From Halichondria panicea (taxonomy: Eukaryota > Porifera > Demospongiae > Suberitida > Halichondriidae): a DNA stretch of 64,000 nucleotides. The DNA is taken from positions 5,270,042 through 5,334,041 of the forward strand of contig NC_087377.1 in assembly GCF_963675165.1 (NCBI RefSeq), given 5' to 3'. The notes beneath the pieces were generated by a model. That model worked only from the letters and a program-made list of their open reading frames with translations, did no database searches and was not told the origin of the DNA. This document shows positions 11,262 to 64,000 of this stretch, piece by piece; position 1 is the first letter of the stretch; every line of letters starts with the position of its first letter. The translations under genes were made by a program, and so were the position numbers.

Positions 11262-14200
11262 CTACACCATAGTTGAGGGTGAGAGTACAATTGCAGTATT
11301 GAGGTCTACTAGTGAGTCTGGTCTGGTGTGTCTATAAGGAGGGACTTGGTCTCCACCGGAGCAGGCCGACCAGATCGTGTGGGGAGCGTTGTCATACGAG
11401 GCCAGGATGAATGGGCTGAGTTGCCGGGCAACCTGGAGGGAGGGGATGAAATGATAAAATCACTTGTGGACCGCAAGCTGCCATATGCTATCTATGAAAG
11501 GGCTTGTTATGCTCTTAGTACCATCACTGCTTCAGATTACTATTATACAGATAAAAGTCCTTAGCTATAAAAACCTCACTTCAACTACATGTAGCAGCAA
11601 TACCTGAACACAGAACTAGCTATTGTTTATAAGTATGCCTAACAACTTACTGGGAACCTCCTGTGAATCTCTTCCTCCGCCTCCCTGTATGTCATCCCCT
11701 GAGGGACGGCCAGACTCCCGAGCCAGCCTCCGTACAAGGCCAGGTGGACAGGTCCCCCTTTCTGGGTGTGGCCAAGAGAGATGCTGGTCAACTTGTCACT
11801 GCCGAGGTAGACGTCTACACGATACTGGTCGGGGGAGAAGGACTGAAGCACCGCAGGAGTGTTCGGAGTATCTGTGTGTCGGAGGGGGAGGGGGTGAGCT
11901 TAGTTACAACGTAACAAGACAGAGGAGCTAGGATCGTCAGGGTCAAAAAGTCTTAATTATAAAGCTGATTCCGGAGGACTTTAATTGAATTCCACTCAGC
12001 TAGCTCAACGTGAATTGGAGATACTAAAGGAAGAGTAGATGAGTGGAATTCAATTAAAGTGCCCGGAAGCAGCTTTATGATTGACCCTGACAATCCTCCT
12101 CTGGTACATGTAACAAGAAGAGTGAATGCTGAGTCTAGTATAGAAAGTGCTATGTAAGCAATGCACCATTATTATGTTAGGCTAAGTGGTTGTCTTGGCA
12201 GGATTGACCACAATACATACAGACTGTACAACAAACACTCACATCCAATGGCCTCCAGTATTTTCCTTCTGTCCTCTTCAGTGGAGGCAGTCTCTGTGTT
12301 GAGCAGATACGAGCACTCTTTGGCCGTGAGACGGGAGGACGGGTTGTCATGGAGACAGCCGTGGAGTAACCTCTTGAGGGTGGGATCCAAGAAGGCAGGA
12401 TGAAGGTGACCACCCCTTTGCTGTTGGATCTGTGGGGCAGAGGAATTGAAATGGATCAGGCTACTACATGTACAGTCATGTATATGACACAGTTCTCAGT
12501 AATAATTATTGTACAGTACTTACAGCTAGAGCATTGGATTTGCTAAACAATAAGTTATGTAACGGAAAAATCTATAGCTCAGAGTATTGAACACACACAC
12601 ATGCACATCCATCTTTCAAAGACATTTAAGAATGGAAACATGTACGTGTACACATTAAAAGTTAGTGCACTGACTCGACTCATCACTGCACTCACCATGA
12701 GCTTGTGGTTCCTCTTCATGGCTATTGTCAGCTGGTCCGATTGTTTCCCTGGATACACGTCCATGAATAGGTGTCTCCATGGTCGTCGCCCAGTGCACAT
12801 GGCCAGTACACAGCAACCAGCCTGCCATACATCAAATGCAAAACTGCACTGCTGCTCTCGATAGAACTATAAGACCGGGGGGGGAGGGGTTATCAATAGA
12901 TGTAAATCATGAGACTATAACCCAGTCTGATAATCAGATCGAGGTTCCAATACCATAGAAGCATCTTTTTTTCTTCAAATTGCATATAAAGTCAAATTCT
13001 AAGCAATCAAATTCGTCTACCAAAACCGTTTTTGGTTTATTGTAAGCTACACACAGGTAGTCAAGTTTCTACACCATAAAACTACCACGGCTCAATTATC
13101 AACACTTCGACGTAAGTACTGCACACATACATGTACATACGTACCTCTGGAGGGTTGTAGCTGAGTGTTCCTGCATTAGGATCGGCAGAGAAGGTCTTGG
13201 AATAGTTGATCCTCTTCTCTCCTATGATCTCCGCTGATCCAAAGTCAGTCAGCTTGATCCTCTGAGCAGTCTCGTCCACCAGAATGTTGGCAGCTGAGGT
13301 AGAGGATTCATTGCAAGTCAGTTAGTGAACTATACAGTAGATTCATGAATGGCTATACATTTAATTATGGTACACGCACATACGGTTCAGATGCCTATAC
13401 ACAGTTAAATAGCTATGGGCCTTTGGGCGCCCTGTGTACAAGTTGTCTATTGCATTTTGGGACACCACCATAAGAAAATATTTTACGGCATGGTTTGAGG
13501 CAAGCTAGACTCAGTATTATGACTTGTAGAACTATAATTATAATCATTGTTAAAATTACATTACTGATTCTATAACTCACGTTTAATGTCACAATGAATG
13601 ATCCCCTGCTTGTTGTGTAGGAAGTCTAGAGCATCAAACAACTGACAAGCATAGTGGTGAACGTTGATGAGGGGAATGGGGCCAGTCTTGAACAGCCAGC
13701 CTTGCATACACACTGGGAGGGGGGAAATGTTTGACTGTAAGAACTATCCGTGTTGTCACCAAGTGGTACGACTAGTCATCCAATGTACCTCTTGAATCAG
13801 GATGTAAACTTATAAGACACAAAATATTGATACCCTGTATAAAGTGCACTAAGCTTCATATAGTAAGAGGGAGCATTATGCATGTATTAATGGTGGTACT
13901 GTCTCTGGTGGTCTATTACTGAACACCACTCACCAGGCATTTGCTCCATGAATATCTGTACAAATGGTGAGGCTCGTTTAGGGAATACCAGGTCACCAGG
14001 CAACAGTGCGGCAGTGTAGTACTCGACGATGTTGGGGGAGGGGTTTGACTGAGAGGCAAACTTGAGCGAGAGATACGCTTCATCCAATGTACGTCTATTC
14101 TCTGTCTCCTGTGATGATGAAACGAAGAGAGAAGATAAACACATGTACATGTATGACAGACTTGCAAATGATAAAAAATAGATAACCGATGATGCTTTGG

Positions 14201-36028: not shown

Positions 36029-36116
36029 TTTTCCCCCCTCCAATGCGCACCATTCGAGTTCAACTGTTCCTCATCAAGTTCCGAAGAAGCTCTCCTCTCT
36101 CAAGTAACAATTCGTT

Positions 36117-36716
36117 ATGTCTGCCGCTCCTAAGCCAACGAAGAAAGATGCCCCTAAGAAGGCTGCTGCTAAAAAGCCCGCTGACCACCCTAAATACGCT
36201 GACATGATCAGTGCTGCTGTTTCAAATCTCAAGGACCGCTCTGGTTCCAGCCGACAGGCAATCGTCAAGTACATCAAGGCCAACTACAAGGTTGGAGAGA
36301 ATGCTGACACTCAGACCAAGCTTGCTCTGAGGAGAATGGTCAAAGATAGTAGCCTGAACCAGGTGAAGGGAGTTGGTGCAAGTGGATCGTTCAAGCTCAA
36401 CAAGCCAGTTGTTGTGAAGAAGCCAGCTGCTCCAAAGAAAGCTGCCGTAAAAAAGCCAGCAGCCAAGAAGGCTGCTGTTGTCAAGAAGCCTGCGGCTAAG
36501 TCAACACCCAAAAAGGCAGCTGCAAAGAAACCTGCTGCCAAGAAGCCCACTGCCAAATCCCCAGCAAAGAAAGCTGCAGCAAAGAAGAGAGTTGCAAAGC
36601 CCAAGAAAGCACCTGCAAAGAAGGCAGCAGCAACGAAGAAGTCTCCTGCTCGGGCAGCTCCCAAGAAAGCACCAGCAAAGAAGTCAGGCACCCCAAAGAA
36701 GGCAACCAAGAAGTAA
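36117..36716 (+). CDS. Linker histone H1
   Basis: A 199-residue intronless frame. A short Lys/Ala-rich N-terminus leads into a winged-helix globular domain at about residues 22-95, with [36 protein letters not shown] and [11 protein letters not shown] visible. A long Lys/Ala/Pro tail with repeated KKPAAKK and SPAKK-type motifs follows. The protein binds linker DNA at the nucleosome entry and exit point and compacts chromatin. Lack of introns, the TATA/CCAAT promoter and the 3' stem-loop all fit a replication-dependent histone gene. It stands alone here with no core histone genes nearby. The large minus-strand open frame over the tail is only its shadow. Confidence 0.97.
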
Positions 36717-44851: not shown

Positions 44852-45274
44852 AACGTGTCCTTTCATCCACCAATTATTTTAGCTTGAGTTGAGTTTATCT
44901 AATTGCATGCATTGTCTGTCTCTTTTGCAGTGTGGTGTGTTTGTGAACCTCGACGTGTCCCAAAGCTGAAGCAATGTAATGAGTACAAAGGACATTGCCA
45001 TGGTTACCAAAGTAATGTAACTGTTTAAAGGCATGCTAGCAATATCCACGTTGAAGTCATTCCATAATAGGTTACCTTGCGGCAACGGGACACCAGAAGT
45101 CCAACTGGGAGCTGCACGTTGTGGGTATAATATAGTTATAGCTTCCACCATAATTATTGGACGAGCGAACTGAGCCCCACACTAGCACACGTGCATTTTT
45201 CTATTTATATTGTACGTTGTTCGATTGAACAAACAAAACTTACGCTCTTTGCCTCACTCAGTGAATTCGTTCGA

Positions 45275-46144
45275 TTGATCTACGTACATATCTATGCTTG
45301 TTTCGCTCGCCCTCAGTGCATCTTTAACATTCCTCTATGTTGGAAATTATGTTCGATTACTTCTTGTTAATGTACAACACGTATTGTTTTAAAAGTTACT
45401 CCATGCACTTTTCTTTTGCTATAAAGTATAATAGTGTTTTTTGCTCTAAACAAAACTATCGATTGTTTTTTCCCGTGTATAGTACGAGCTGTTGTGCAAA
45501 CCACTTTTGCAGCACAATCATCGCTCTTCGTAATGAAAATGTGAATCTGTGTATAGTTAAGCTAGGGCATACATGTCACTGTTAAATTGTAACCCTACCC
45601 CTGGCTTCTGCAGGTGACACCACACTATAGCAACACACATACATTGCTACCTCCCAATTTAAAAGTTCCATTCAAGAAACAAACTGAATTTTGTGAGCAT
45701 CCCATTATTTTATTATTACGCAGCACTACTCCATTCATAATTTGTACCTCGGTCAGCCCGAGGGTAAAAGCATTCAGTGCTCTATGGCTTATAAAGGCTT
45801 GCTACATCTATTAACCACGGACCACCACCATGCAGTCTTCATGTGCACTAGCTATTATTCTTCAATTACCCCTCACAGTCACAACTGTTATTTCATTCAG
45901 CTGGTTCCGCTTCCGCTAACTTAAGTTGATCATATGTTAATATTTCTAATTCCTTACTGAAACTTTTGTCCCTCATACTTAATCTAAACGTCGCTTTGCT
46001 TAATTATCACAACATGCATGCGTTTATGTGGTTCAATTTCCTGCCTACCTGGCTATGTGTGTGCGTATAGGTACAGCTGAGCATGAATACCAGAAATCAA
46101 AATACAGGTGGCTGTATTATACTAACAATGAATTGCTTTAAATA
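45275..46144. repeat. 870-bp direct repeat, copy upstream of gene 1
   Basis: Very similar along its whole length to 50721-51590, starting TTGATCTACGTACATATCTA and ending AATTGCTTTAAATA. Small indels separate the copies. No inverted ends or reading frame suggest its type. Confidence 0.9.
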
Positions 46145-46855
46145 AAGGCTATAAAGGGTTTGAATAAAGGAATGCGCTTACAGTGTATCAAGTTACTTGT
46201 ATATAGCTACTAGCATTTACCATGCAACCTTGTGCCTAACTTTCTTTTACTTCCATCACTTCAAATCAAGGAAGCAATGTGAGTATATACTGCATGCATA
46301 ATTATAGCAAGCAGATCTATTTGGGTATAGATAGACCTACCCTGAAGTTTTTTCCTGCACATTTTTAACCTACATATAGCTACGTATCTTCTGCCAAAAT
46401 GATCTAGAGCTGGTAATAATCAGTATATATGTGGAAATTTAAGCTTTTCACGTAGAATTAGACTGTACCTGTACAGATGATTAATCACTTCAGGTTGGTA
46501 GGCATTTAATTTAAGTGCAGCCAGCCATGACCACCTCATTCACTTCACTAATGTCACAGTTGACTGTCGAGGCCGGCCAGTCTTGTTGGTGGTGGTATCC
46601 TTCGCTCACGCAGGCAGATAGTGAAGCAACTATTAACTCAAGTACTTCAACTTTTAACTGCCTACCTCAAATCCTCTGTATAACTATACAAAGGTATTTT
46701 CCATTGTTCGATTGCTCGTGTGTGTGTCATTTTTAGGAAAATCAAGTATATCGATAGCCATAAATATTAGATCTATATATGCGTGAGAAAATAATGTTGT
46801 ACGTGCATATCCATACATCCTTTTCTATTCCTATAATATTATTATTTGCTTAGTG

Positions 46856-49800
46856 ATGTCTAAGCTCATCGTCAACGATTTGAAGAAAGAAACAGGAGTA
46901 ACAGACAAACAACTGGGACAGGCATGTAGGAAAAAACACTTGAAAGAAATTGCACAGCATGTCGGAAACTATCCTCAATTTGCCTCGAAATTCGACTTAC
47001 CACCTCCTGTTGCATCTGGTATTGACACTGATCTCAAATTGTCGTATGACCAAAAAGCGCAGAAAGTTTTCCTATACTGGTGGAAAAATGCCAAAAATCG
47101 TACTTACTTGAATTTTGTGCAAGCATGCCTCGAGCTCGGTGAAGGGGGCATAGCACGCAAAATGTGCAAACTCAGTAAAGGTATAATTAAGTATTATAAC
47201 CTTATAGGTTTGCAGAATCAGACTAATAATAATATTAGTGATAATGTTTCTTTGAATACTCTTACATAATTATATAGAGAGTGTCGAAGATCAACCCTAT
47301 TCTGAGATGATTTCAGGTAATCATTATAGAATTGGAAATGGTGTAGGCTGAAGCTGAAACACCTTTTTAATCATACAGATACCGAAGTCAAGGAAGATTC
47401 ACCCGCTTTGCCAAAGGTACACCTATTATGGTTGATTCTATTCATTAGGTATAGTCATGCAGGTAATCTGACAGCATTGATAGTATATTCATGTCGGAAC
47501 CACCCCCATATAAGTAGATCACATTCACGCTCATGCAGGTATGGTATACATTTTCCCAAACGTGCAGTACCCATAACATTCATGTTTACTGTATGGCAAC
47601 CATAATTATGTTAGTATAATAATACACACAAACCCACGATCTAATTTCGTGTTCTAATTAAATTTATGTGCAGATAGAGGGGATGCAGATGTTTTGCACC
47701 ACTGATGATGAAAAACTGGAGCAGGTTGACCCAGCTGATGCCTCCAACATCCCAACAGATGCTCAGGGTGGGGTGGCACGATACCACTTGTTGTGGGATG
47801 TGAAGCTAGTTCCAGAGCTGAAAGTTCATTTTTTGAACCCTGAGATTCTCACGAAAGATAATTGGACATGTGGGCATAGCCATGATCAACTGACAGCCAA
47901 CAATGTGCTTGACTGGGCCACTGTCTGGAATAACCGTGCTAAAAGCTACCCACTGATTGCTGATGAGCTAGCAACAAAAGAAACAGCTCATATCCGTGTG
48001 GAATTTACCAGTGACAGTGAGTATGTTCATGCAGTCTCTATACACAGTAACACTGCATGTAGTGGCCCTCTGATTTATAGCACAATGTGAGTTAACCATC
48101 ACACACTTCAAACCTCGTAAACGTTTGAGTATTTTGGTATAACACGAAAGAGGCATGAACAATGCATGCATGCATTTTACAGAGAAAGTGATATCATGGT
48201 CAAAGGTCGGAAGTGCAGCATTGAATACTGGCCAAAACGACCCAACAATGGTGCTGAACTTGTATGGCATGGCTAAAGCTGAACAGAGAAGCATGGTAAT
48301 TCATGAGTTTGGCCATGCTCTGGGACTGGATCACGAGCATCAGCGATCCGACTTCTGGGATGTGCTGGAATCAAAAGATGAATATGAAGAATATCGATTT
48401 ATTATTGGGAGAAGGCGAATGAAAAGTGGAGATGGTGGGCGTTGCATGAGAGCTTGTGATGCAGTGTTCCGAGGAAAGCTGAATCTGCCACATGAAATTG
48501 AAAAGTCTGAGTACGACCCAGCCAGCATCATGCACTATTGGTAGGTTAAAATTATACGCAGTATACCTGACCCCTCTTCATACAGATTCCTGTTTTTAGG
48601 GAAGTCGATCTGATAATGTATACAGCGCTGTTAATACTGAATTTCCTCAAAACCAACATTATAATTGTTTGTATGAGTGATGTTTTTGATGTGCATGTAA
48701 ATTTTTTGTTTCCAGGTTTGACAAAAACTGGTTGTTGCCGGAGTATCGAAAGCGTTCAGATGTGGTCAATGTTAGTGAGCAAGAGAGGAAGGTGCTATTG
48801 GGAGTTCATGACCGTGACTACAACAATGGGAATCTGGCAAAACAGCCATCCGAGCTGGACTATGAAACATTGAATAAGGCCTACAGTAACAAGGTAAAAG
48901 GTTTATGGTTTTCACTTGTCGGCATGCACTACCTAAGGCATTTTGTTGTCAGCTTAATATTTTGAAAATTCCCACTATATAGGTGAGTTCTTGCCGCTCA
49001 TGTGCTGGACGCAGCCAATGCAATGGGAAATCATGTCCGTGCTTCCATGAGGAAAAAGCTTGCACCCCAAAATGTCACTGCAAACTAGACTCGTGTCGAA
49101 ATCCGAATAATGGCTCGCATGAGTACGTTCACATTAATATTAGTTAATGCCTGTAATAACTAACGTGTTGCCCAATGATTTCAAACTCTTCTGATTGCAT
49201 GGTCAAGTTTTCCCATTTGAGTAAATTCATTATATAGTTTTGCTGAATTTCATAGCTTCCCACAACTATAATATGAGGGGTCAATAGTGCCAAAATGCAG
49301 TGGTGGTGGCTAATTAGCCTCGAACACGTTAAGTTCAAGATAAGGTTGGAACCACTGGGCCTCTAGCTAATTAAACTTCTGTTGCAGACTACTTAGTTTT
49401 TAGTGTCTGGGTGGGAGTGGTCGGCACCAGTAGCGCTGACCTGATATCAGGCTGCTCATGGTCTTGAGGCTAGCACAGGAGAATCCTCTGTTTCAGCTAA
49501 GGTAAAGGTCAAGTGGTTCTATCGCATCGCCGCCTAAACATATTCGAGGCTAAGCCGCCGCCTCCTCCTAAATACAGCAATTTGTTTTCTTTTGTAACTA
49601 TAATGCAACATGCCATATACAGAGCACTGGGTTGCTTTGATCGGCCCACTCACTGGGCAAAAAATAGTTACGATTGAGAGAGGCTGCATGCATGATCACA
49701 TTTATACAGCGATAATAATTATACTTAGTTTTGGCAATTCTCAGCCAATTATTTCTGAGTTTTTATACCACATAGCACTGCGTTTACACAGCATGGATAG

Positions 49801-52800
49801 CCTCAACACCACAACTTATCAGTTGCATAAATTGATTTAAAGCTTCGTTTTTCCTATACTGGTTAGTAAGCGCATGCGCCTGTAGGGAAAATAGTGGTAA
49901 ATGGAGATTTGCTTCATTGAAACGTCATGGGTGTGGTTATATTTATAGGTGTGGTTAATCTCTATAAGCACATCTGGATAATAGGCGCATAGAGGCCCAC
50001 TCTTTTCCCTACAGGCGCATGCGCTTACTATAGCTAGCTCGATTGTTTGTCCGCAAGAGGTCTATAGTCATATCTGACAGCAGTAACAAACTACCGATAG
50101 TGAAAGAGACTTAACATCTATAAAGAGGTGTGGAGACCGAGTTGTTGGGCAAAGAACTGTGCAGAAAACCATGTGCCTTCTATCAAGGCTCTTGGTCTGC
50201 TCCAGTATGCGCCTATTAGTTGATGTGCGCTTATTAACGGTTATTAACCAGATTATACGGTAGAGTTGCACATTGCATGGCAGTGTATAGCTATATAGAT
50301 GTATATACACGCCGCTATTATTCGAGGTAGCTATTACACATGCGCGGTTTGTTTTCTTGGAGCTTCTCTGCTGATTATTGCTGAAAATCCTGGCTACGCT
50401 CCTACTGTATAGTGTCACTGCATTTAATTTAACTCATGTAAACTCATGTATTTATCATTCTCATAATGAGCCCGGTAACATTAATTTGTAGTTAGTCCAT
50501 AGGTTCAGGGTATAGGCGTATTAGAGGGCTATAAAATGTATCATTATTATAACACACGATAAGGAATATTGCTGGCATACAATTATGTGAGTAGTCTCAA
50601 TAATAATACTAATTTTTTGTATTTTAGTGGCCAAAAGGTGCTCCAAACTGGAGCTGCTGCTGGTCCTCCAACCACTACCCAGTACTACACAAAGCCTGTC
50701 AGTGAAGGTAAATACAATAATTGATCTACGTACATATCTATGCTTGTTTTGCTCGCCCTCAGTGCATGTTTAATATGTTGGAAATTACTCGATTACTTCT
50801 TGTTAATGTACAACACGTATATTGTATTAAAAGTTACTCCATGCACTTTTTTTTTGCTATAAAGTATAATAGCTAGTGTTCTGCTCTAAACGAAACTATC
50901 AATTGTTTTTTCCCGTGTATAGTATGAGCTGTTGTGCAAACCACTTTTGCAGCACAATCATCGCTCTTCGTAATGAAAATGTGAATCTGTGTATAGTTAA
51001 GCTAGGGCATACATGAATTGTAACCCTACCCCTGGCTTCTGCAGGTGACACCACACTATAGCAACACACATACAATGCTACCTCCCAATTTAAAAGTTTC
51101 ATTCAAGAAACAAACTGAATTTTGTGAGCATGCACATTGTTTTATTACTGCGCAGCACTACTCCATTCATAAATTCGTACCTCGGTCAGCCCGAGGGTAA
51201 AAGCATTCAGTCCTCTATCGCTTATAAATAAGCTTGCTACATCTATTAACCACGGACCACCACCATGCAGTCTTCATGTGCACTAGCTATTATTCTTCAA
51301 TCACCCCTCACAGTCACAACTGTTATTTCATTCAGCTGATTCCGCTTCCGCTAACTTAAGTTGATCATACGTTAATATTTCTAATTCCTTACTGAAACTT
51401 TTGTCCCTCATACTTAATCTAAACGTCGCTTTGCTTAATTATTACAACATGCATGCGTTTATGTTGAATGTGGTTTAATTTCCTGCCTACCTGCATGGCT
51501 ATGTGTGTGCGTATAGGTACAGCTGAGCATGAATACCAGTAATCAAAATACAGGTGGCTGTATTATACTAACAATGAATTGCTTTAAATAACTCGACTGC
51601 TGAATTGGTACTCCTCCCACACTGAGGTGTAGAACTTGAGCACCACCTCTCTCACCAGCCCATATCCACGCTGTTGTAGCATCATTTCACATATTGTAAA
51701 CCCTGAAGGTATGACTCTATTTCGCATAAGCTGAAAATATTTTTGTATATAGGTCGGAAGGGATCACATACACATGTTGCTTGTTGACATTTATTGTCCA
51801 TCAGCACCCACCAACTATTTACAGTAATGCTTCACCATGCCTTGCTTAGAGCGCTGCTCCAACTATGGCCTGGAGCTCATTCTAGTGTTCTTTGGGATCT
51901 TCATGAGTATTGGATTTGTGACACAAAAGCTTCAAAATTTGAGCACTTATGCGCATGCACGAGTCAGTAGATGTTTGCTATTAAATATTAATCGAGAATA
52001 GGATGATCGAGGTTCGGGTAATGGATTGCTGATGGCCTAGCCTAATGAATATGAAGGTGTCTTTCATACCATAGCCATGTTATGTGTATGAATTATGTCG
52101 TTAGAAATATAACTCCCCATCCGTTACAGCAATGCATGATGTCCCAACAGTTGCTACTGCGAGTTCTCCACAGAGCGATCAATCTGGTGCACAGCCAGAA
52201 TGTGAGTAACTGTGACATTACAAAATCCTTGCCATTGTAGAGACATGTTGTACACTAACACCATGCAACATCTCACATTACTGCATTGTGTAGCCTCGTC
52301 TTAGTCTGGAATCAAGGCTATTATACGCATTGTGGTGAGATGGTGTCTCTATTATAATTATACAGATCTGGTAGTCTCCTGCCTTGGAAAAAGAGCTTTG
52401 GCATCAGATAAAGAAGATGAAACCTCTCCAAAGCGTTTGAAGAAGGATATCGGTATAGGATATTATTATTACATACAGCCATATAGATAATAGAGGAAGG
52501 GGATTGGAAACGGGATCACGTGAGCTTATGCTTGCAACCAATAGATACCTTGAGGTGTGATTTTACTGGTTTTGAGGTCACTGCGGTGACCAGAAATTTT
52601 GTCACCGCAGTGTCGATGTGTGGCAAGACCATAATAATTATGCTTATACCTTCTATTGATTGCATGCTTATTGTTGTCTATATGCATATATATATATATA
52701 TATATATATGCATATATATATGCTATATGCTTGCTCAAGCTTTTAGTTTAGCATTAGTACATAAAAATGTATTGCAAGCTCAGCACTTTAAGCTGCATCC

Positions 52801-53461
52801 ATGGTCGCGGCTATAATGAGGTTGCAACACGGACTGTCCGTGTGAAGTAGTACTAATTGCCTGCGTTTTTCTAATCCCCTTCCTCTACTATCTATGATAC
52901 AACTTACGGAAAAGGAAACGATTAAGGGTACTCTAGCTCGAGTAACATCCGCTTTACTCTGCGGTTCATTCGAGGCTGTGTAACAAGCCAAAATTGTAGA
53001 TAGGCTATATACGCGACCGTGTAATAATTATAACGTACATGGAGGGGACTTTACGACTTTTATTACACCCTTGGATAATTATATTTATTATACATTGTAT
53101 AATTATAGGATCATCATCGGATCATCCTGTCAAAAGCCCAAAGTTAAAAAATACAACAGAGTCGTCCTCCACTGTTCTTACTCAAGATGATATTCCAACA
53201 ATTTGTGAGAGGCTGGCGAGTGCAAGCAACAATTGGTTCAATTTGGGATTGGCTCTCGGAGTGAAGTATACACACTTGCAAAATATTCAAGAGCAATTTC
53301 CTAATAATGAGCACCGCCTAACAAATATGATGGCCATGCGTCTCCAAGTTTCTGATTCAAAGGATCCAGTCACATGGCCTTACATCTGTGAGTGCCTAAG
53401 GCGTCCTTTAGTAATGCGTTTTGATGTAGCTGATAACATTGAACAAGTACTAGGCATATAG
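46856..53461 (+). CDS. Death-domain/astacin-like metalloprotease/CXC/Death-domain protein (gene 1)
   Basis: Eleven exons in continuous frame: 46856-47180, 47278-47316, 47379-47416, 47674-48016, 48183-48540, 48716-48893, 48983-49122, 50628-50707, 52130-52201, 52366-52452, 53109-53461; 670 residues. Residues 1-108 form a Death-like helical domain (KEIAQHVGNYPQFASKF, YLNFVQACLELG). Residues 135-427 are a metzincin protease: WSKVGSAAL, PTMVLNL, zinc site HEFGHALGLDHEHQR (H289, E290, H293, H299) and Met-turn SIMHYW (M365, with Tyr367 as in astacins). Residues 428-473 are a CXC-type Cys-rich motif (SCRSCAGRSQCNGKSCPCF, CTPKCHCKLDSC). A basic NLS-like pair (GKR...PKRLKK) spans 532-551. Residues 580-668 are a Death domain (ICERLASASNNWFNLGLALG, DPVTWPYICECL). 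No signal peptide or prodomain is seen, so a cytosolic or nuclear site is inferred. Family kinship and role are from memory of these folds. Confidence 0.9.
49864..50030. mobile_element. MITE in gene 1 intron 7
   Basis: Inverted ends start TAGTAAGCGCATGCGCCTGT and continue AGGGAAAA, with an exact complement on the right. The copy at the same place in gene 2 (59115-59266) has lost part of the right arm, so the insertion is older than the gene duplication. Confidence 0.8.
50721..51590. repeat. 870-bp direct repeat, copy in gene 1 intron 8
   Basis: It begins 13 bases after the exon 8 donor and copies the DNA that lies upstream of the same gene at 45275-46144, in the same direction. It is absent from the short corresponding intron of gene 2. 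Confidence 0.9.
52480..52896. mobile_element. Nonautonomous DNA transposon, 7-bp target duplication (family A, copy 4)
   Basis: It lies in gene 1 intron 10. The ends read CATATAGATAATAGAGGAAG and the complement of CATAGATAGTAGAGGAAGGG. The flanks ATACAGC (52473-52479) and ATACAAC (52897-52903) are a 7-bp duplication with one change. An AT run at 52683-52713 lies inside. Confidence 0.8.
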
Positions 53462-56069
53462 CTATAGTAAAAATGAAACAGTTTTTCTATACGTGCATAC
53501 CATAATAGTTTTCTTCTGCAACACTGGACAAGTCTAGTGTCTTTTTAACCCATATATATATTTTACATGTACATGCAGTATAATTATTATAGTTGTCAAC
53601 GTCATTGTTAAATTTGTGTTCAGTTCCGACAGGTAAAGAGTGGCCCAAAATACATGCAACATTGTAGGTGACCTATGTCATGATTAATGTTATTCATTAA
53701 GCAGCTAGTTATCCACACGTACATTTTACGATTTTACTCTCATTCATATTACCCATGTACGATAATAATTGTGTCAATAATTTTTCTGACAAAAATACTT
53801 GCAATGTGAAAATTGCTAAAATAGACGTCTCGGGGTGCTGAAACCTTAAAAGTGTCAAATCATAGTGAGTCAGACCCTGGTTAAGGGGGTTTTTTAGGTA
53901 CATTTAAAATTGGGGAAGTGGGTGTGCCAAAATACAGGGGGAAAAGTTACGCTTTACTATACATGCGTCGATTTTAGCAACTAGCAATGTGTGTGAACTC
54001 TCTGGGACATTTTTGATGGACAGGGCACGCGTTTATGACTCAATAGCTTATTCAACTATCGAGTGAGGTGTTTCTATTCAAAAGGAGCTTATTATGGACT
54101 ACATTTATCAGTGCAACTTTGTGGTCTTTTGTGTCAGATTTGGGACAATAATAGAGTCAATGGCAGGTGAAGGGTTATGCATGCATGTGGTTTGTGTGGA
54201 CCTAGTGGAAAGTGTGCATGTAAATGAGTGGGTTATCTACCTCAAAGTATCTGCAATATAATATAGGATAGTGATCATACTGTTATGTATATATGGTACT
54301 GCGATATGTAATTCACAGAATATCCACTGACTAATTATAACTCCTTATAGTCCATGCATGCACTGGTAGAGCAATTCGAAGGGGCTGTGTCCCTCGCATG
54401 TTTTCAGGTCTGCGCTACCTGTAGGAAATACTGTATAGAGGGTAATTTTCGTGTGGCAAAATATTCGTGGGTTTTCGTGGTTGAAGGTCTGACCACGAAT
54501 ATTTTACCCACGAATGAAGCGACCTTGCTTACCTTTACCTGCAGTGCAAGCTCCAACCACCAAAATATTACCCACGAAATGTCTCAATATAATTATATTG
54601 CTAAACCACGAATATTTTGTCCCCCGAAAATTACCCGCTATACGGTAGTCAAAATTCAATTTATGGTTCATGGTATTTGGATTTTTATTTAGGATGCCGT
54701 TATGCAAAACTTAATGAAAATAATGATCTTTACCAAAAATTGACATTCTTCCTTTAGACACCATAAATTATGCTAAAATATTATTCCGAGCATAATGTAT
54801 CAGGGCCTCTTTGAATTGTCGTTTTGGCATCGTTGTACTGAAACTCCACGCACTCTAGCTGCTCTTAGTGGGCCTCTTTAATTAATCTCAGTATGATTGT
54901 ACGAGACAAGCGCATGTCCTTTCATCAGTAAATACCATCATATTGTTTTGTTGAGTTAAGGTTGTCTAATTAAACGCATTCTCTGCCTCTTTTGTAGTGT
55001 AGTGTGTTTAAATCAGTGAACCTTGACGTGTCTCCAATGAAGCAATGCAACCGAACGAGTACGAAGGACCTACACCTCTCTCTGGCAGCATGGTTGCATG
55101 TGTAATACGCTATACTCGCAAGTAGCCTGAAGGGTGATCACAGAAGGCAAAGAGGTGACTCCTAACCTTTTGAGCACTTATAAATCATATCTTGTAGGAA
55201 CTTCCTGAACGTGCAGTCTAACTATTACTTAACAGGTGATGAGAGGCATTTGTGTTATTTATACCGGGGTTACCCCAGTATAATAATTTATTATATAGCC
55301 TCCTTCAAAAAACACCCCTCACAATGCAGTCACACTGTTTTGAATCCCCTAACCTAAGCTGGTATTTCTAATTCACTGAGACTTATACGTCTCACTCTCT
55401 CAGTCATACTTTTGATCTGAAAGTCTATACTGCTTATATATAGCTATGCACACAATTCTTAACTATCACAACATGGTTAGAGTTTCAATTTCCTGCCTCC
55501 ATGGGTATTTGTGTAGGTGTGTACATTTAATGCATTATAGGTATTGAATATCACTGACAGGAATCAGACAGGTGGCTGCACAGTAACAATGAATAAGGTC
55601 AAAAATGGCAAATAAAGGAATGCAGGTACTGTTAACAGTATATCAAGTTACAATTATTATACACACTAGCATTACCACCCCATTTTTTTGGCTGACTGTT
55701 GCAAATCGAGGAAACACTGTGAGTATTGCATGGATATAGCATGCAAGTAACCTATATGTGTGTGAAAACTACCTAGCTACCTCTGACAAAAAAGTGAGCT
55801 ATAAGCCAAATCAGTATAATTTGTATGTGAGTCATTTACTGGCCTACATAATAATTAGTAACATTTGTAGCTTGCAGAGCTGCACTTGACAATCTTGGTC
55901 TATCTGTGCAGCTACAGTTTAAATAAGACACAGACAAACTTCTTGTGCATTGTATAGGCATCATTATAGATCTATAACTATTGCTTATAAGCATTATGTG
56001 TATTGTTCTTACAAGAAGATCATAGCCATAATCTTATATCCCCCTTTCTGTTCCAGTTTACTAGAAGTG
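53462..56069. other. Spacer between protease genes 1 and 2
   Basis: AT-rich DNA without a gene. It holds the family C element at 54429-54647. A diverged stretch at about 54890-55090 resembles the DNA upstream of gene 1 (about 44850-45000), so the upstream flank was probably duplicated with the gene. An acceptor-like CAG just before the start at 56070 suggests a noncoding leader exon. Confidence 0.5.
54429..54647. mobile_element. MITE with TACNGTATAG ends (family C, copy 2)
   Basis: The left end is TACTGTATAGAGGGTAATTT and the right end its near complement, CCGAAAATTACCCGCTATAC plus GGTA. The terminal TA suits a Tc1/mariner-type target site. Confidence 0.8.
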
Positions 56070-59000
56070 ATGTCTAATCTCACAGTCAAAGCTTTGAAGA
56101 CAGAAACAGGAGTAACAGACTATCAATTGAAACAAAAATGTCAGGATGAACACTTACGAAAAATTTCACAACATGTCGGAAATCGCCATGATTTTGCTGC
56201 TAAATTTGGCTTGCTCCCTGCTCTCATAGCTGGGATTCAAATTGATCCCTCATTGTCGTTTGCCCAAAAAACACAGAAAGTGTTAATGTGGTGGAGAGAT
56301 AATAACGACAATGCTACTTACTTGAAGTTTGTGCAAGTTTGCCTTGAGCTTGGCAATGGGAGCGTGGCAAGTAAAATGTGTGAAATTTGTAAAGGTATAT
56401 AATTATACATATAATGCTGTGCATGGTCTCAATAACGTCTGCTAAACCTTTGCACTAATTGTGGTAATAATGTTTCTTTGAATACAGAGGGTGTCAAAGA
56501 TCTACCATTTCCTGAAGCGACAACACTAGGTATAATTAAATTGTGGGATTTTAACATTATAAAGCTGAAACACGCTTTTTTAATCGTACAGGTACCGAAG
56601 TCAAAGAGATTCCACCCGCAAGCACTCTGCCAAAGGTACACCTGTCAATGCATGTGGTATAGTGAGTGAGGTGTCATAGCATTGGTAATTATAGTGCAGC
56701 CACCTTCCTGATATTCAATGCTGAATGTAGCATTGGTAGTATTTATGTTGGAACCACCCCCATACCAGTATAGAGCATGCATATTCACGCTCTGTTATAT
56801 GACAGTATAATTATTGATAGCATGTTTATTATGGCAACCACATTTAGGTATGGTATACACAGATCTCTATTGTCATATTCTATACTCTGGTGATAAACTA
56901 AAATCGATGTGCAGACAGAGGGGATGCAGATGTTTTGCACCACTGATGATGAAAAAGTGGAGCAGGTTGACCCAGCTGATGCCTCCAACATCCCAACAGA
57001 TGCTCAGGGTGGGGTGGCACGATACCACTTGTTGTGGGATGTGAAGCAAGTTCCAGAGCTGAAAGTTCATTTTTTGAACCCTGAAATTCTCACGAAAGAT
57101 AATTGGACATGTGGGCATAGCCATGATCAACTGACAGCCAACAATGTGCTTGACTGGGCCACTGTCTGGAATAACCGTGCTGACAACTACCCACAGATTG
57201 CTGATGAGCTAGCAACAAGAGAAACAGCTCATATCCGTGTGGAATTTACCAGTGACAGTGAGTATGTTCATGCAGTCTCTATACACATGCACAGTAACAC
57301 TGTAGCGGCCCTCTGATTTATAGCACATTCAAACCTCATAAAAGTTTAAAGTTTCTAGTATTTTGGTATAACACGAAAGAGGCATGAACAATGCATGGAT
57401 GCATTTTACAGAGAAAGTGATATCATGGTCAAAGGTCGGAAGTGCAGCATTGAATACTGGCCGAAACGACCCAACAATGGTGCTGAACTTACATGGCATG
57501 GCAAAAGCTGAACAGAGAAGCATGGTGATTCATGAGTTTGGCCATGTTCTGGGACTGGATCACGAGCATCAGCGATCCGACTTCTGGGATGTGCTGGAAT
57601 CAAAAGATGAATATGAAGAATATCGATTTATTATTGGGAGAAGGCGAATGAAAAGTGGAGATGGTGGGCATTGCAAGAGAGCTTGTGATGCAGTGTTCCG
57701 AGGAAAGCTGAATCTGCCACATGAAAGTGAAAAGTCTGATTACGACCCAGCCAGCATCATGCACTATTGGTAGGTTATAATTTATACGCAGTATACCTGA
57801 CCCCAGCTCTTCATACAGATTCCCTGTTTTTAGGGAAGTCGATCTGATAATGTATATACAGCAGCTGTTAATACTGAATTCCCTCAAAACCAACGTTATA
57901 ATTATTTGGATGTGTTTGATGTGCATGTACATTTTTTGTTTCCAGGTTTGACAAAAACTGGTTGTTGCCGGAGTATCGAAAGCGTTCAGACGTGGTCAAT
58001 GTTAGGGATGAGCGAGAGAGGAAGGTGCTGTTGGGAGTTCATGACCGTGACTACTCCAATGGGAATCTGGCAAAACAGCCATCCAGGCTGGACTATGAAA
58101 CATTGAATAAGGCCTACAGTAACAAGGTAAAAGTTTATGGTTTTCACTTGTTGGGATTTGGAATAGGTTGTTTAATTTCAGCATGCACTACCTAAGGCAT
58201 TTTGTTGTCAGCTTAATATTTTGAAAATTCCCACTGTATAGGCGAATTCTTGCCGCTCATGTGCTGGATCCAGCCAATGCAATGGGAACTCTTGTCCGTG
58301 CTTCCACGAGGAAAAATCTTGCACTCCAAAATGTCACTGCATACTAGACTCGTGTCGAAATCCAAATAATGGCTTGCATGAGTACGTTAATTCACCATTA
58401 ATAGTTAATGCCTGTAATAACTAACGTGTTGCCCAATGATGTCAAACTCATCTGATTGCATGGTCAAGTTTCCCCTTTTGAGTGAATTCATTATAGTTTT
58501 GCTGAATTTCATAGCTTCCCACAACTATAATATGAGGGGTCAATAGTGCCAAAATGCGGTGGTGGTGGCTAATTAGGCTCGAATACGTTAAGCTCAAGAT
58601 AAGGTTGGAACCACTGGGCCTCTAGCTAATTAAACTTCTCTTGCAGACTACTTCTAGCCTTAGATTTTAGTGTCTGGGTAGGAGTGGTCGACACCAGTAG
58701 CACTGACCTGATATCAGGCTGCTCATGGTCTCAAGGCTAGCACAGGAGCACCCTCTGTTTCAGCTAAGGTGAAGGTCATGTGGTTCTATCGCATCGCCGT
58801 CTTAACATAATTATTCGAGGCTAAGCCGCCGCCCCACCAAGTAAACGCCTCCTCCTCCTAAATACAGCAAATTTGTTTTCTTTGGAACTATAATGCAACA
58901 TACCATAAATATAAAAATAGTTACGATTGAGAGAGGCTGCATGATTACATTTTATAATAATTATACTTAGTGGACTAATCATGTTGCAATTCTCAGCCAA

Positions 59001-60418
59001 TTATTGTATTTATTCCGACCACATAGCACTGCGTTTACACAGCATGGATGCCTCAACACTACAACTTATCAGTGGCATAGTTTGATTTAAAGCTTCGTTT
59101 TTCGCTATACTGGTTAGTAAGCGCATGCGCCTGTAGAGAAAAGAGTGGTAAATGGAGATTTGCTTCATTGAAACGTCATGGGTGTGGTTAAATTTATAGG
59201 CGTGGTTAATCTCTATAACTGGATAATAGGCGCATAGAGGCCCACTCTTTTCGCATGCGCTTATTATATAGCTAGCTCAATCGTTTGTCTGCAAGAGGTC
59301 TATAGTCATATCTGACAGCAGTAACAAAACTACCGATAGTGAAAGAGACTTAACATCTATAAAGAGGTGTGGAGACCATTTGTTGGGCAGAGAACTGTGC
59401 AGAAAACCATGTACCTTCTATCAAGGCTCTTGGTCTGCTCATCAGTATGCGCCTATTAGTTGATGTGCGCTTATTAACGGTTATTAGCCAGATTATACGA
59501 TAGAGTTGCACATTGCATGGCAGTGTATAGCTATATAGATGTATATACACACCGCTATTATTCGAGGTAGCTATTACACATGCGCCGTTTGTTTTCTTGG
59601 AGCTTCTCTGCTGATTATTGCTGAAAACCCTGGCTACACTCCTACTGTATAGTGTCACTGCATTTAATTTAACTCATATAAACTCATGTATTCATCATTC
59701 TCATAATGAGCCCGGTAACATTTGTAGTTAGTCCATAGGTTCAGAGTATAGGCGTATTAGAGGGCTATAAAATGTATCATTATTATAACACATGATAATG
59801 AATATTGGTGGGATACAATTATGTGAGTATAGTCTTAATAATAATACTTATTTTTTGTATTTTAGTGGCCAAAAGGTACTCCAAACTGGAGCTGCTGCTG
59901 GTCCTCCAACCACTACCCAGTACCTGACAAAGCCTGCAGGTAGATACAGTAAACATAATTATAATTAACACATTGCACAAAATTAAGGGAGGCAGAATTT
60001 GACACAATGCTGTTTTTTTGTTTCTTCATCTTTATAGATCAAACTGAAGCGACTGCAGCTCAGTTAAGTAAAGAGTGCTCAGATGACGCTCTTCTCCAGT
60101 TGTCTTCCAAGATTGCCGACTATGACGGTTTCAAACTCTGGCTGGGCCTCAGTGAGGCTGAAATTGACGCTATTGATCGGACAATTGCTACTATTCCAGG
60201 GAGATTTTTTGCTGCTCTGAAGAAATGGAAAGGTAAAGGCATTCTTAACTCGATGGCTACTTACGGTCGATTAGTGGAAATTGCTAGGAAGAAAGATGAC
60301 GGATATGCATTTCGGAGTATTCACAAGGCCTGTATCGAGCATACAAGTAAGTTCATAGTGTATCATCTGTCTATATAGCTTCTGATGAATGATATTTTTG
60401 CCATATATAGGCCCCTGA
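56070..60418 (+). CDS. Death-domain/astacin-like metalloprotease/CXC/death-fold protein (gene 2)
   Basis: Ten exons in continuous frame: 56070-56394, 56488-56529, 56592-56635, 56915-57257, 57412-57769, 57946-58126, 58242-58381, 59866-59939, 60038-60346, 60411-60418 (TGA); 607 residues. The last 8-nt exon is the least sure; reading through the donor at 60347 gives a stop at 60376-60378 instead. The N-terminal Death-like domain (1-108) matches gene 1 at a little over half of its residues. The protease (about 138-431) is nearly identical to gene 1, with HEFGHVLGLDHEHQR (H292, E293, H296, H302) and SIMHYW (M368). The CXC motif spans 432-478. After a short linker shared with gene 1 (GAAAGPPTTTQY), the C-terminus is a different death-fold domain at 503-605 (SSKIADYDGFKLWLGLSEAE, AYGFRS-like helix near the end reading GYAFRSIHKAC). 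The NLS-like exon of gene 1 is absent. No signal peptide is visible. Confidence 0.88.
59115..59266. mobile_element. MITE in gene 2 intron 7, damaged
   Basis: Partner of the element at 49864-50030. The left end is intact (TAGTAAGCGCATGCGCCTGT), while the right arm lacks the CCCTACAGGCGC part. Confidence 0.75.
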
Positions 60419-60549
60419 GAGGGTATCCAAGAAATGCAGTGGACATTCTTATTTAGCTAGCTTTATTTGCATTTTCTTCATTTAAGTAAGTACAGTTGTG
60501 CTGAAAGTTTTATAGTTTCATGCAGTGATATAATTATCACCTGTAAGTA

Positions 60550-60675
60550 TTAGTTATTGTCCAGCACGAGTGCAACATGCCATATATTGCACTGGAGCAA
60601 TATAATGCCCGAGGGCATTATGTCATCCAGTGCAATATATGGCATGTTGCATGCACGAGCGCCTGCAATAACTAA
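60550..60675. mobile_element. Hairpin MITE (family B, copy 2)
   Basis: Same ends (TTAGTTATTG, CAATAACTAA) and same 26-bp stem as 10731-10858. The two copies differ at a few bases and small indels. Confidence 0.8.
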
Positions 60676-61176
60676 CTTGTTGCCCAATGACGTCAAATTT
60701 AGTGAATTCATTAGTAACTTCCACCTGTGGGAAAGAAGGCATCCAGTATACATTCATATAGAGGGTCAACTCTTCTATTTTTGGGTTAAATGATCTTCAC
60801 TCCTTTTCACCAGATTATAGATCTATACGAGATAGGATAGTTTTAGCTGCATGATTGCATGAGAATCCTTCACTGGGAACCATGGAGTGGGGGGGTGGGG
60901 GCCACATTTTAAGTTGTATGTACCATACTTCTTCTAAAAGACGCCACCTGGAGATTTCTCTCATACAAATTCATTGGCTATTTCTTGTTTTGCATACATG
61001 TACACTAGCCTCAAAAAAGTAAAAAGCGGCGCCTAATTTAGAATACGTAATAATAGTACTGTATTATCACAGTTAGCTATAAAAAGTAAAAAGTACAGTC
61101 ACATGTGACTGAATTTTATGGATTGGCTGTATAGGTCACACGCAATGAATACTATATATGTATGCCATAACTAGTA

Positions 61177-61484
61177 CAGTAGAACCTCGATTATCCGGAC
61201 ACCTTGGTTCCAGAAGCAGGCCGGATAAGTGAATATGCCGGATAATCGAATAGATAAACCACGCCTTGATCCACCCATTTTATTGATGAACAGCAGTGTC
61301 ACATGGTTGTCTGCGCATGCGCAAAAGAAAAGCAGGCATGTCTCCATGGTAACAACTGCAACGCGCATGCGCATTTGAGGGACACGCCCATTTTATGAAT
61401 TATGTAATCTGATAAAATAAAAAAAGTCAAGCCGGATAATCGAGGTTCCAGATAATCGAGGGCCGGATAATCGAGGTTCTACTG
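61177..61484. mobile_element. Tigger/pogo-like MITE
   Basis: The terminal inverted repeats are CAGTAGAACCTCGATTATCC and its complement GATAATCGAGGTTCTACTG, flanked by TA on both sides. GATAATCGAGGTTCCAGATA is repeated inside near the right end. This end type and the TA target site are typical of pogo/Tigger derivatives. The element has no transposase. Confidence 0.85.
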
Positions 61485-62274
61485 TATTATTTATTTGCCC
61501 AACACGTTTCAATCTGTACCTACGCCTCTCCTAGGCTACTATAGGTAGCTGAGTAACTCCATGCACCGTTTCAATTTGAAATTTCACTTTTAATACAAAA
61601 ACTATAATCTAAATTGGAGACATGTCTTTCTACCTGCAGCTGCGGGAAAGCAAGGCGTCCAGTTATCTACACGCATGCAGAAGTCAACTCACTTGTTGAG
61701 TTACTCTTTTCAACAGATGTCATGAGATCTATGACAGTTGGATAGTTTTAGCTTGCATGATTGCAAAAGAATCCTAAAATAATAATGCTTCGATTCCTGT
61801 AGTCACACGTGCAGGAACCATGGATCGAGTATATATAGTGGCGGGATAGAGTGGAGTGGGAGAGTCAGACTGGAGGCTAGGCACTCACCCCTCAATTATA
61901 TATGCAATAGTGCTTTAAATAATAGTGCTTTAAATAATAATTATAATTATAGACCTACATTAATTTGCACCCACGTTTCAATCTGTTCCTATACCGCTGG
62001 TATTACGCCACAGTATTTATACAAAATGGTTCTAGCCAAACTATTTTTACTGTGTGCACCTGATGTCTATGCATGCATACACTTCAAGAAGCATGCATTT
62101 AAGTAGCTCATCAGGCAATTTGGCAATTATGGGTAACAATATTCATAGCTATATTACCCCAAAGGAAGTACTGCTCATGTGACTGATTCATCAACACAGT
62201 GCCATACACTAGAGTTTATACAATAATACATGACTGTATAAGTTATAGTTATGGGTGATTAAAGTTTAGTAGAA

Positions 62275-64000
62275 ATGGCTACACCAGAAACGAAAGTGTT
62301 GGAAAAGTGTTATCCTGATCTCGTGAAGTGTATTGAAATAGCACCTACTGATGTAGCAGTTAAGGTTAGACCACATGGATTACTTTCACCAAAGGATTTT
62401 ATATACATCAACAATGACAATCGAGACAGAGATGATAAAGCAATAAGATTGTTAGACTCTGTGAGCAATCAGGTGTTGATAAACAAAGAATCTTTTCATC
62501 TGTTTGTTAGTGCTTTGAAGGAAGCTGGAACTTTTACAAAGAGTGCAGTTGCTTTGCTTGAAGCAACATACAAGGACATTTCAAATCCTTCCTTTTGTGC
62601 AGGTAAGATTATTGATCAATGCATAATTAAAGTGCTATGTTACTGCAAGTCTTCATAGCTTTGTAACTTCAATAACACCTTTTCAATATAATTATTATGG
62701 GGTGGGGCACTTTTAATGTTACAGATGATCTCAATGTCAAGGAGCTGCCCCCTGATTCTGCAAGCAAATCTCCGACAGCTTCACAGCCTCATGCAGCTGC
62801 CTGCAAGGTACACCTGCATGACCATAAACATTGTTTGTGTTCCTATATTATATGAATCGAGAGCCCCTATCAGCCATGGCACGGATCGGACATTCTGGTG
62901 GCATTATATAATAATTATATACTCACTATAGGAACCACCCCCTCTAGCAGAACTCATAATTAGGCCACACCAAATTAATCTTATGTTTCACGAATTTTCC
63001 GGGTTATACTTTTGCAGAATACCCAAAAAAATAAACGAATTAGTGGTCCAGGTCAGAGGTCAGAATAGCCATGTGATCTAGCAAAACCAAGTGCGTATGA
63101 AGAGAAGAGGGCATGCAACTAATCAAATTACAAATGGGAGGGCGTGTGCACTAAAAATAGATTGCACGTGCACTTACTCCATAATAGTCACCAAGCCAGC
63201 TAGCTAGCTAGCACTGTACTGTTGGGTAGAGTTAGCCACAAAGGTCAACAAGCGGAAGAGAAGGACCAATGCTAGACTAGAAGTAGCCATTGATCAGCTC
63301 TTCTAAATTAATTGTGCGGCTAGTATAACAGTGTTCACGCCTACTATCACGCCTATTTACGTGTGGGCAGTTGGCTAAATATAGTATATCCTGCTGACTC
63401 ATCAGTATTTTGACGACTACATAGTATACATTGCGAGTTGCATGCCCTCTTCTCTTCATACGCCCTTGGCAAAATGTTATAGCTAAAGTGACTTTTTGTG
63501 GTGTGTTGTGACTCTGTTTGTGGTGTTATAATGATATTCATCAATTTTTTTTCTTTTTTTCCTGCCACCCTGATCTGTTTTTGGAGATTAAAAGTACGTG
63601 AAACATAAAATCAATTTGGTGTGGCCTTATGATCATGCACTGCATGGGTGATTATACAAATAAAAAAAGGAATTGGGTATTATTGATAGATCTCTCGTGT
63701 TTACTTTACTATACCCACTATTAGACCTCTATTTTCATTTATCACATGCATGGGCTTCAACTCTGGTGATATACATTATTCTATTTACATGTATGCCATT
63801 TTGTGCAGATAGAGGAGATGCAGATGTTTTGTACCGCTGACGATGAGAAATTGGAGCAGGTTGACCCCTCCAACATCCCAACAGATGCTCAGGGTGGGGT
63901 AGCACGACTCCACTTACTGTGGGATGTGGAGCAAATTCCAGAGCTGAAGATACATTTCTTGAATCCCGACATTCTTGAGGACGAGCACTGGAAATGTGGG
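62275..64000 (+). CDS. CARD/astacin-like metalloprotease protein (gene 3, 3' truncated by window)
   Basis: Exons 62275-62602, 62725-62807 and 63809 to the window end, in frame. The first 95 or so residues have the pattern of a CARD: VLEKCYPDLVKCIEIA, VKVRPHGLLSPKDFIYI, DDKAIRLLDSVSNQ, FHLFVSALKEAG. CARDs bind other CARDs in six-helix signalling assemblies. A Pro/Ser-rich linker (KELPPDSASKSPTASQP) follows. The third exon begins exactly like exon 4 of genes 1 and 2 (IEEMQMFCTADDEKLEQVD, then NIPTDAQGGVARLHLLWDV), which is the start of the protease. The zinc site lies beyond the window, so activity cannot be judged. The protein differs from genes 1 and 2 in having CARD in place of the N-terminal Death-like domain. 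The second intron holds a 664-bp transposon. Confidence 0.8.
62963..63626. mobile_element. Inverted-repeat element with TTA target duplication
   Basis: The terminal inverted repeats are about 29 bp, starting GGCCACACCAAATTAATCTT on the left and matching the complement on the right. TTA flanks both sides (62960-62962, 63627-63629), as in PIF/Harbinger insertions. A second inverted pair inside (about 63098-63120 and 63435-63462, containing AAGAGAAGAGGGCATGCAAC) makes a nested structure. No transposase is seen. Confidence 0.8.

Follow-up and report, generated by a model that had tools for sequence, protein, structure and literature searches.

Predicted Death-Fold Metzincins in a Tandem Gene Cluster of the Sponge Halichondria panicea

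Death-fold domains are joined to a zinc protease core in three adjacent predicted genes, A, B, and C, at the end of a 64,000-nucleotide stretch of Halichondria panicea DNA (the window, C1:5270042-5334041 of the 131 Mb genome). This architecture of death-fold metzincins is strongly supported by splice models, domain profiles, and paralogues elsewhere in the genome. We lean toward reading the products as intracellular, latent M12A-like metzincins whose activation would probably be under the control of death-fold assembly; intracellular location, activation, and a role in immunity are what we infer from the architecture.

Gene Architecture

Genes A and B were modeled by manual splicing at GT-AG sites with matched phases. 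Gene A (46856-53462) has 11 exons encoding 670 amino acids, in the order Death domain, two linker exons, three protease exons (p1, p2, and p3), a Cys-rich exon, three linker exons, and a second Death domain. Gene B (56070 to approximately 60420) follows the same plan with fewer linker exons; as modeled it has 10 exons and encodes 607 amino acids, the final residues being uncertain. All internal junctions of the two genes are GT-AG and phase-compatible. Gene C begins at 62275 and has three exons in the window, the end of which cuts its first protease exon. The following 3.3 kb (L001, 254-3271) complete it with p2 (the HExxH exon), p3, and a Death domain at the C-terminus, and the gene as a whole reads CARD, metzincin, Death. 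The initial annotation had the coordinates and the three-gene reading right. Its claim that death folds flank the protease held directly in A and B; C needed the 3.3 kb beyond the window.

Candidate splice sites in paralogues have the same phases. The donor of the N-terminal module is in phase 1 in all eight cases, the p1 acceptor is in phase 0 in nine of ten (gene F deviates), and the p1 donor is in phase 1 in ten of ten; this check counts nearby GT and AG sites, several per junction, and is supportive only. All eight N-terminal Death modules checked (DDx type, see below) have a start Met. Simple hydropathy over the first 40 amino acids, which is not a dedicated predictor, found no signal-peptide-like stretch in A, B, or C (best 8-residue means of 0.58, 0.59, and 1.74, respectively), in agreement with the initial annotation, which had described the signal peptide as missing.

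Metzincin Core

Metzincin copies were counted across the genome with the HExxH exon, which has at least 50 matches, with certain copies matched in several pieces. Reading 25 stretches together with the window gave 31 protease copies (32 open reading frames [ORFs], the zinc exon of gene J being split over two frames). The zinc site HEFGHxLGLxHE is present in 28 of the 31, including A and B, and its residues are invariant columns in a 17-row alignment; it is absent from the second copy in L013 and the second and third copies in L110. The Met-turn (SIMHY or SVMHY) is found in 29 of the 31, again including A and B. HExxH exons match Pfam Astacin above the cut-off (1.2e-7 and 2e-7; values here and below are E-values unless given in bits). 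The 17-row HExxH-exon profile matches bacterial myroilysin over its full length (3.4e-10), and its match to crayfish astacin is a local one (0.032). By zinc site, Met-turn, Pfam, and profile scores, the core is thus an M12A-type metzincin, and these scores bring it nearer to myroilysin from bacteria than to the secreted animal astacins of solved structure. The "astacin-like" label of the initial annotation agrees with the Pfam Astacin match, the zinc site, and the Met-turn; it is loose in that the core covers only part of PF01400 and its best solved relative is myroilysin. A review words the M12A motif with the continuation EXXRXDRD in the part cited here. The sponge sequence is HEHQRSDFWD, in which E, R, and the first D are retained and FWD then stands for RD.

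Bacterial homologues are abundant (119 found, 80 kept). The core of 294 residues has 102 local matches to bacterial or phage homologue ORFs; none begins before residue 61, and 32 extend to residue 230 or further, into the Met-turn. Stronger Pfam astacins occur elsewhere in the sponge genome, for example at 187.6 bits on C5. NCBIfam matches to the core were not used (NF050131 reached 5.4e-14, yet its 51.9 bits fall far short of the cut-off of 650; for LegP the figures are 19.6 and 300), and PADLOC gave no result. A viral source of the fusion was considered and rejected; the candidate, L095, had the second-best E-value in IMG/VR, at 44% identity, and is a small gene in a contig that looks phage-like by eye. 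In that contig the small M12A-like zinc protease gene occupies 3728-4438.

Pro-Segment Cysteine

The proteins likely keep a pro-segment with a cysteine switch of the myroilysin type, since the Cys of their short pro-segment aligns with the pro-segment Cys of bacterial homologues. One Cys lies ahead of the core, between linker and core, in 27 of 29 copies (four p1 ORFs are omitted from this set, one short and three truncated or without the strand motif); the remainder of the segment varies among subfamilies. In bacterial and phage homologues the Cys column is filled in 40 of the 56 ORFs that passed the strand filter (a near-identical zinc-motif filter gave 94 ORFs). The two Cys columns coincide in a profile-profile alignment (hhalign, probability 94%, E 1e-7). 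For example, a Myroides relative (L027) has QMCKDVY...TDPRGAV..TKW where gene B has QMFCTTD...TDAQGGVAR..LLW. The initial annotation had stated that the inhibitory prodomain is missing, and this claim did not stand, given the short pro-segment with its conserved Cys and the alignment with bacterial pro-segments.

As a control, a Cys in a fixed window was found in 26 of 29 copies, compared to a mean of 13.0 (maximum 20) over 1000 random draws from the same residues. The Cys is present in all 26 rows with a zinc site and in one of three zinc-less rows (Fisher p 0.007, uncorrected for two of these rows being tandem copies), although its placement in the second copy of L013 is unsure because four Cys lie close together there. 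Such co-retention is what one would expect if the Cys serves the zinc. The only rows without the Cys are two copies at C8:4.83 Mb, which also have no zinc site. These two zinc-less copies of L110 (C8:4825500-4834500) are without the Met-turn as well. Like the second copy of L013, they may be regulators without activity, or genes in decay.

Death and CARD Domains

Death folds of two types, DDx and DDy, and CARDs were assigned by family profiles. DDy is the type of the C-terminal Death domain of gene A, and its profile matches FADD at 2.8e-7. Six of seven DDy members match Pfam Death at E <= 1 (best paralogue 1.7e-11), and the C-terminal DDy of gene G (L004) has no Pfam match. On these matches DDy can be regarded as a secure Death family. 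DDx is the type of the N-terminal Death domains, and it is homologous to the C-terminal Death domains of B, C, and E; six of eight members match Pfam Death at E <= 1 (best 7.4e-5).

The exons in the window are under the Pfam curated cut-offs (Death 0.016, 0.036, and 0.11; CARD 0.0034), and gene B as a whole reaches 22.2 bits against a Death cut-off of 22.6. Several paralogues are over the cut-off: the C6 gene (1e-5), the C-terminal copy of gene E (7e-5), and the C-terminal Death domain of L109, a protease-less neighbor (9.3e-7). The N-terminus of L109 has no Pfam Death or CARD match. The CARD of gene D is also over the cut-off (2.1e-5), which supports the CARD assignment; the CARD of the C7 gene (L114) has no Pfam match and is assigned from the family profile alone. 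Membership of the Death/CARD superfamily is therefore supported through the paralogues and the match of DDy to FADD, with the window exons below cut-off and the N-terminal DDx weak. The initial annotation had proposed hidden Markov model searches on the spliced proteins; such searches returned Astacin on the core, and for Death and CARD they stayed below cut-off in the window while exceeding it in several paralogues.

The Family across the Genome

A Death or CARD exon stands in line with 18 of the 31 protease copies. Seventeen of these belong to the C1 tandem cluster (11 of its 12 copies), the C3:1.43 Mb cluster (four of six, C-terminal only), C6 (one, C-terminal), and C7 (one, in the order CARD, Death, protease). 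The 18th is on C8; approximately 0.7 kb upstream of its p1 lies an N-terminal Death exon that starts with Met (5.9e-27). Single death-fold copies therefore occur on three further chromosomes (C6, C7, and C8). Death folds are at the N-terminus in 12 copies (the CARD of gene E being partial), at the C-terminus in 14, and at both ends in eight. Chance proximity is a poor account of this arrangement, because DDx-like exons number only 332 first-look candidates in 131 Mb, or about one per 400 kb.

Because J and K duplicate F and G at 96-99% identity, the copy counts are not independent events. For gene J, extending the reading 3.6 kb upstream revealed no N-terminal death fold, and the C-terminal Death domain of gene D is split over frames. 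Directly 3' of the C7 gene, L114 carries a dynamin-like GTPase ORF (5592-6809; Pfam Dynamin_N 1.8e-14).

Module Exchange and Selection

Genes A and B differ sharply in how far their modules have diverged. They are 93.9% identical in the core, 55.6% in the N-terminal Death domain, and 14.9% in the C-terminal Death domains, which are of different types. Synonymous distances are 0.014-0.042 in the protease exons versus 0.54 in the N-terminal Death domain. These contrasts in identity and synonymous distance suggest that modules were probably reassorted by exon exchange or gene conversion. The combinations of death folds are Death with DDy (A, F, G, and K), Death with DDx (B), and CARD with DDx (C, D, and E).

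Ratios of nonsynonymous to synonymous substitution (dN/dS) indicate that the protease is under purifying selection, with a median of 0.35 for the HExxH exon (55 non-independent pairs) and 0.46 for p1. Medians are 0.60 for the N-terminal Death domain (21 pairs) and 0.45 and 0.48 for the C-terminal Death domains, and the single CARD pair has 1.30; the medians leave out a single pair each for p1 and DDy. Values above 1 were found in four pairs (p1 of A-B, N-terminal Death of B-H and F-H, and CARD of C-D).

L109 (C1:5388500-5395000), compared with L108 and L002, shares a 2.3-kb stretch, including the N-terminal Death exon, with gene L at 96% identity, and its 3' Death domain is 89% like that of gene E. 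At the protease position it has a 288-amino-acid ORF of unknown family and no detected protease, as if a different effector had taken the central place. A large ORF at 7084-8109 of the window has no convincing Pfam family, and its C-terminal part is distantly like the L109 ORF (E 1e-4); it is perhaps a candidate for a TRADD-N-like domain.

Comparison with Known Systems

Initiator caspases are expected to act by induced proximity. Like the sponge proteins, caspase-9 and caspase-8 (CARD or DED plus caspase) have a death-fold adaptor and a protease in one intracellular polypeptide; they differ in having a Cys-His dyad, whereas a metzincin zinc site with death folds at both ends is found here. To our knowledge, every animal protease coupled to death folds is a cysteine protease belonging to the caspase or paracaspase clan. 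Among the Pfam matches to A and B with E <= 1, no caspase family appears.

With astacins (M12A) and myroilysin the core has in common the HExxHxxGxxHE site, the SIMHY Met-turn, and the Pfam Astacin match on p2; with bacterial homologues it also has the pro-segment Cys in common. In the cited part of the review mentioned above, animal astacins are described as extracellular proteins with a signal peptide, a prodomain, and a catalytic domain, and with an aspartate switch. Two of the features given there were not found in the sponge proteins, namely the signal peptide (judged by hydropathy only) and the full EXXRXDRD continuation. In place of secretion, the sponge proteins have death folds.

Death-like adaptors joined to exchangeable effectors are described in the cited parts of Kaur et al. 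(2020, 2021) for bacterial EAD/bDLD systems, along with large, architecture-swapping Death-TRADD-N families in the sponge Amphimedon. The H. panicea genes are similar in both respects, as far as those parts go. The peptidases named there are mainly caspase, trypsin, and papain-like; metallopeptidases in bacteria appear as rare effectors or as a separate zincin-like peptide-processing system (Kaur et al., 2020), and one inactive zincin-like domain is named (Kaur et al., 2021; PMC8195603). Section 10 of the latter paper, on Amphimedon, lists caspase, PNPase, and HD and no metalloprotease. A fusion of death fold and metzincin was not found among the titles and abstract beginnings listed from the open-licence literature, which does not imply absence from print. 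A death-fold-coupled protease is a known kind of protein, and the metzincin version is, by the sequence comparisons, a real and replicated architecture, to which the pro-segment Cys adds a feature informative about mechanism.

Proposed Mechanism and Alternatives

In the preferred reading, assembly controls a latent protease. The pro-segment Cys would cap the catalytic zinc as a cysteine switch, and Death or CARD contacts with upstream adaptors or receptors would gather many copies. In such a cluster the cap could be freed by cleavage of the linker in trans or by oxidation of the Cys, and the freed protease would then act on substrates inside the cell as part of an innate-immune or cell-death response.

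A bolder version, which we consider less likely than not, is that these genes represent a third catalytic class among proteases activated by death folds, evolved in animals. They would encode an intracellular zinc "metallo-initiator," kept latent by a Cys switch of the bacterial M12A type, fired by Death/CARD assembly and possibly by oxidation, and carried in a fast-recombining array in which adaptors, and the central effector too, change places; its role in innate immunity would parallel that of caspases. A large family joining these assembly domains to a zinc protease would show that death-fold coupling is not bound to one catalytic chemistry, and would give early animal immunity a metal- and redox-sensitive protease arm.

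Several points weigh against control by assembly. No death fold was found with these profiles in 13 of the 31 copies (Table 1), meaning that a death fold is, or once was, dispensable for the protease. Taken alone, the Death domain at the N-terminus of gene A finds no Pfam match. Against PDB, the N-terminal DDx profile matches Fas, RIPK1, and FADD weakly (0.010-0.06), and its top match is an unrelated hydroxynitrile lyase (0.0023). AlphaFold models had a predicted local distance difference test score of 47.2 for the N-terminal Death domain (two rows) and 45.0 for the CARD (single sequence). Foldseek with the low-confidence Death model placed the CARD9 CARD and Fas/FADD at the top with E >= 0.73, which we do not take as proof. 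Some copies look damaged, as in the zinc exon of gene J over two frames and the three copies without a zinc site. The conserved Cys might have a different role. Domain types are the sole tie of these genes to cell death or immunity, and the whole case is built from sequence.

The death folds might instead merely place the protease, as a scaffold or for targeting, with catalysis constitutive or otherwise controlled, for example in cutting invader proteins or bound adaptors. We consider this doubtful, although it has several observations in its favor. Most of the 13 proteases without a detected death fold have the pro-segment Cys, and because of this latency may be independent of assembly. The CXC-like module of A and B (the Cys-rich exon) and the nuclear-localization-like linker of A also suggest placement. 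Death folds at two ends with swapping of types would, we infer, fit multivalent assembly better.

CXC-type zinc modules can bind DNA, and A and B could be nuclear, chromatin-tethered regulators in which the death-fold protease acts at that site, for example in DNA sensing. The CXC-like exon, which is not mentioned in the initial annotation, resembles Pfam TCR and MSL2-CXC (0.008-0.11) below their cut-offs (at best 16.9 and 16.2 bits against 23.5 and 26.7). A linker of gene A (KRALASDKEDETSPKRLKK, with SPKRLKK) looks nuclear-localization-like by eye. The exon also adjoins Death-like exons at a C10 locus without a protease. The CXC matches are weak, however, and the module is confined to A, B, and this one C10 locus, with genes C to L having none; a nuclear role is accordingly improbable in our view. 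At the C10 locus (L115, C10:6519000-6527500) the CXC-like exon lies beside three Death-like exons, and of the two run against Pfam, one matched Death (0.0081) and the other had no Death match.

That the modules belong to separate neighboring genes, their fusion being a modeling artifact, is very improbable: gene A has introns of up to approximately 1.5 kb toward its 3' end and an in-frame Met in p1 is a possible alternative start, but the A and B models are phase-compatible with linker exons between modules, paralogues have candidate sites of equal phase, and order and strand are kept in the 18 in-line copies, other chromosomes included.

Features of the Window

Coordinates of the exons of genes A, B, and C are given in Table 1.

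Table 1. Exons of the three death-fold metzincin genes, and protease copies in which no death fold was detected.
Feature	Position	Strand	Basis
Gene A exon 1, N-terminal Death (DDx type)	46856..47180	+	splice model, profiles
Gene A linker exons 2 and 3	47278-47316, 47379-47416	+	splice model
Gene A p1, conserved-Cys pro-segment, then N-part of metzincin fold	47674..48016	+	splice model, alignment
Gene A p2, zinc site HEFGHALGLDHEHQRSDFW and Met-turn SIMHYW	48183..48540	+	Pfam, profiles, alignment
Gene A p3, protease exon	48716..48893	+	splice model
Gene A Cys-rich, CXC-like exon, weak TCR and MSL2-CXC matches	48983..49122	+	splice model, Pfam
Gene A 3' linker exons, the last encoding KRALASDKEDETSPKRLKK	50628-50707, 52130-52201, 52366-52452	+	splice model
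Gene A last exon, C-terminal Death (DDy, FADD-like)	53109..53462	+	splice model, profiles
Gene B exon 1, N-terminal Death (DDx)	56070..56394	+	splice model, profiles
Gene B linker exons	56488-56529, 56592-56635	+	splice model
Gene B p1 with pro-segment Cys	56915..57257	+	splice model, alignment
Gene B p2, HEFGHVLGLDHEHQRSDFW and SIMHYW	57412..57769	+	Pfam, profiles
Gene B p3	57946..58126	+	splice model
Gene B CXC-like exon	58242..58381	+	splice model, Pfam
Gene B linker exon	59866..59939	+	splice model
Gene B C-terminal Death, DDx type, differing from that of gene A	60038..60346	+	splice model, profiles
Gene C exon 1, CARD	62275..62602	+	Pfam, profile
Gene C linker exon	62725..62807	+	splice model
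Gene C p1, cut at window end	63809..64000	+	splice model
Gene C beyond the window: p2, p3, C-terminal Death	L001 254-619, 2064-2240, ~2954-3271		profiles
13 copies without detected death fold	I; C1:5.98 and 7.74 Mb; C12; two of C3:1.43; both C3:3.07; three C8:4.83; C14; C9		

A repeat of approximately 0.87 kb, 92.7% identical, is present upstream of gene A (45274-46145) and in an intron in its 3' part (50720-51591). Elsewhere in the window, ORFs at 1606-2905 and 11620-12866 are inverted duplicates on opposite strands with near-identical translations, partly kinase-like by eye. An ordinary linker histone H1 gene lies at 36108-36716 (Pfam 6e-28).

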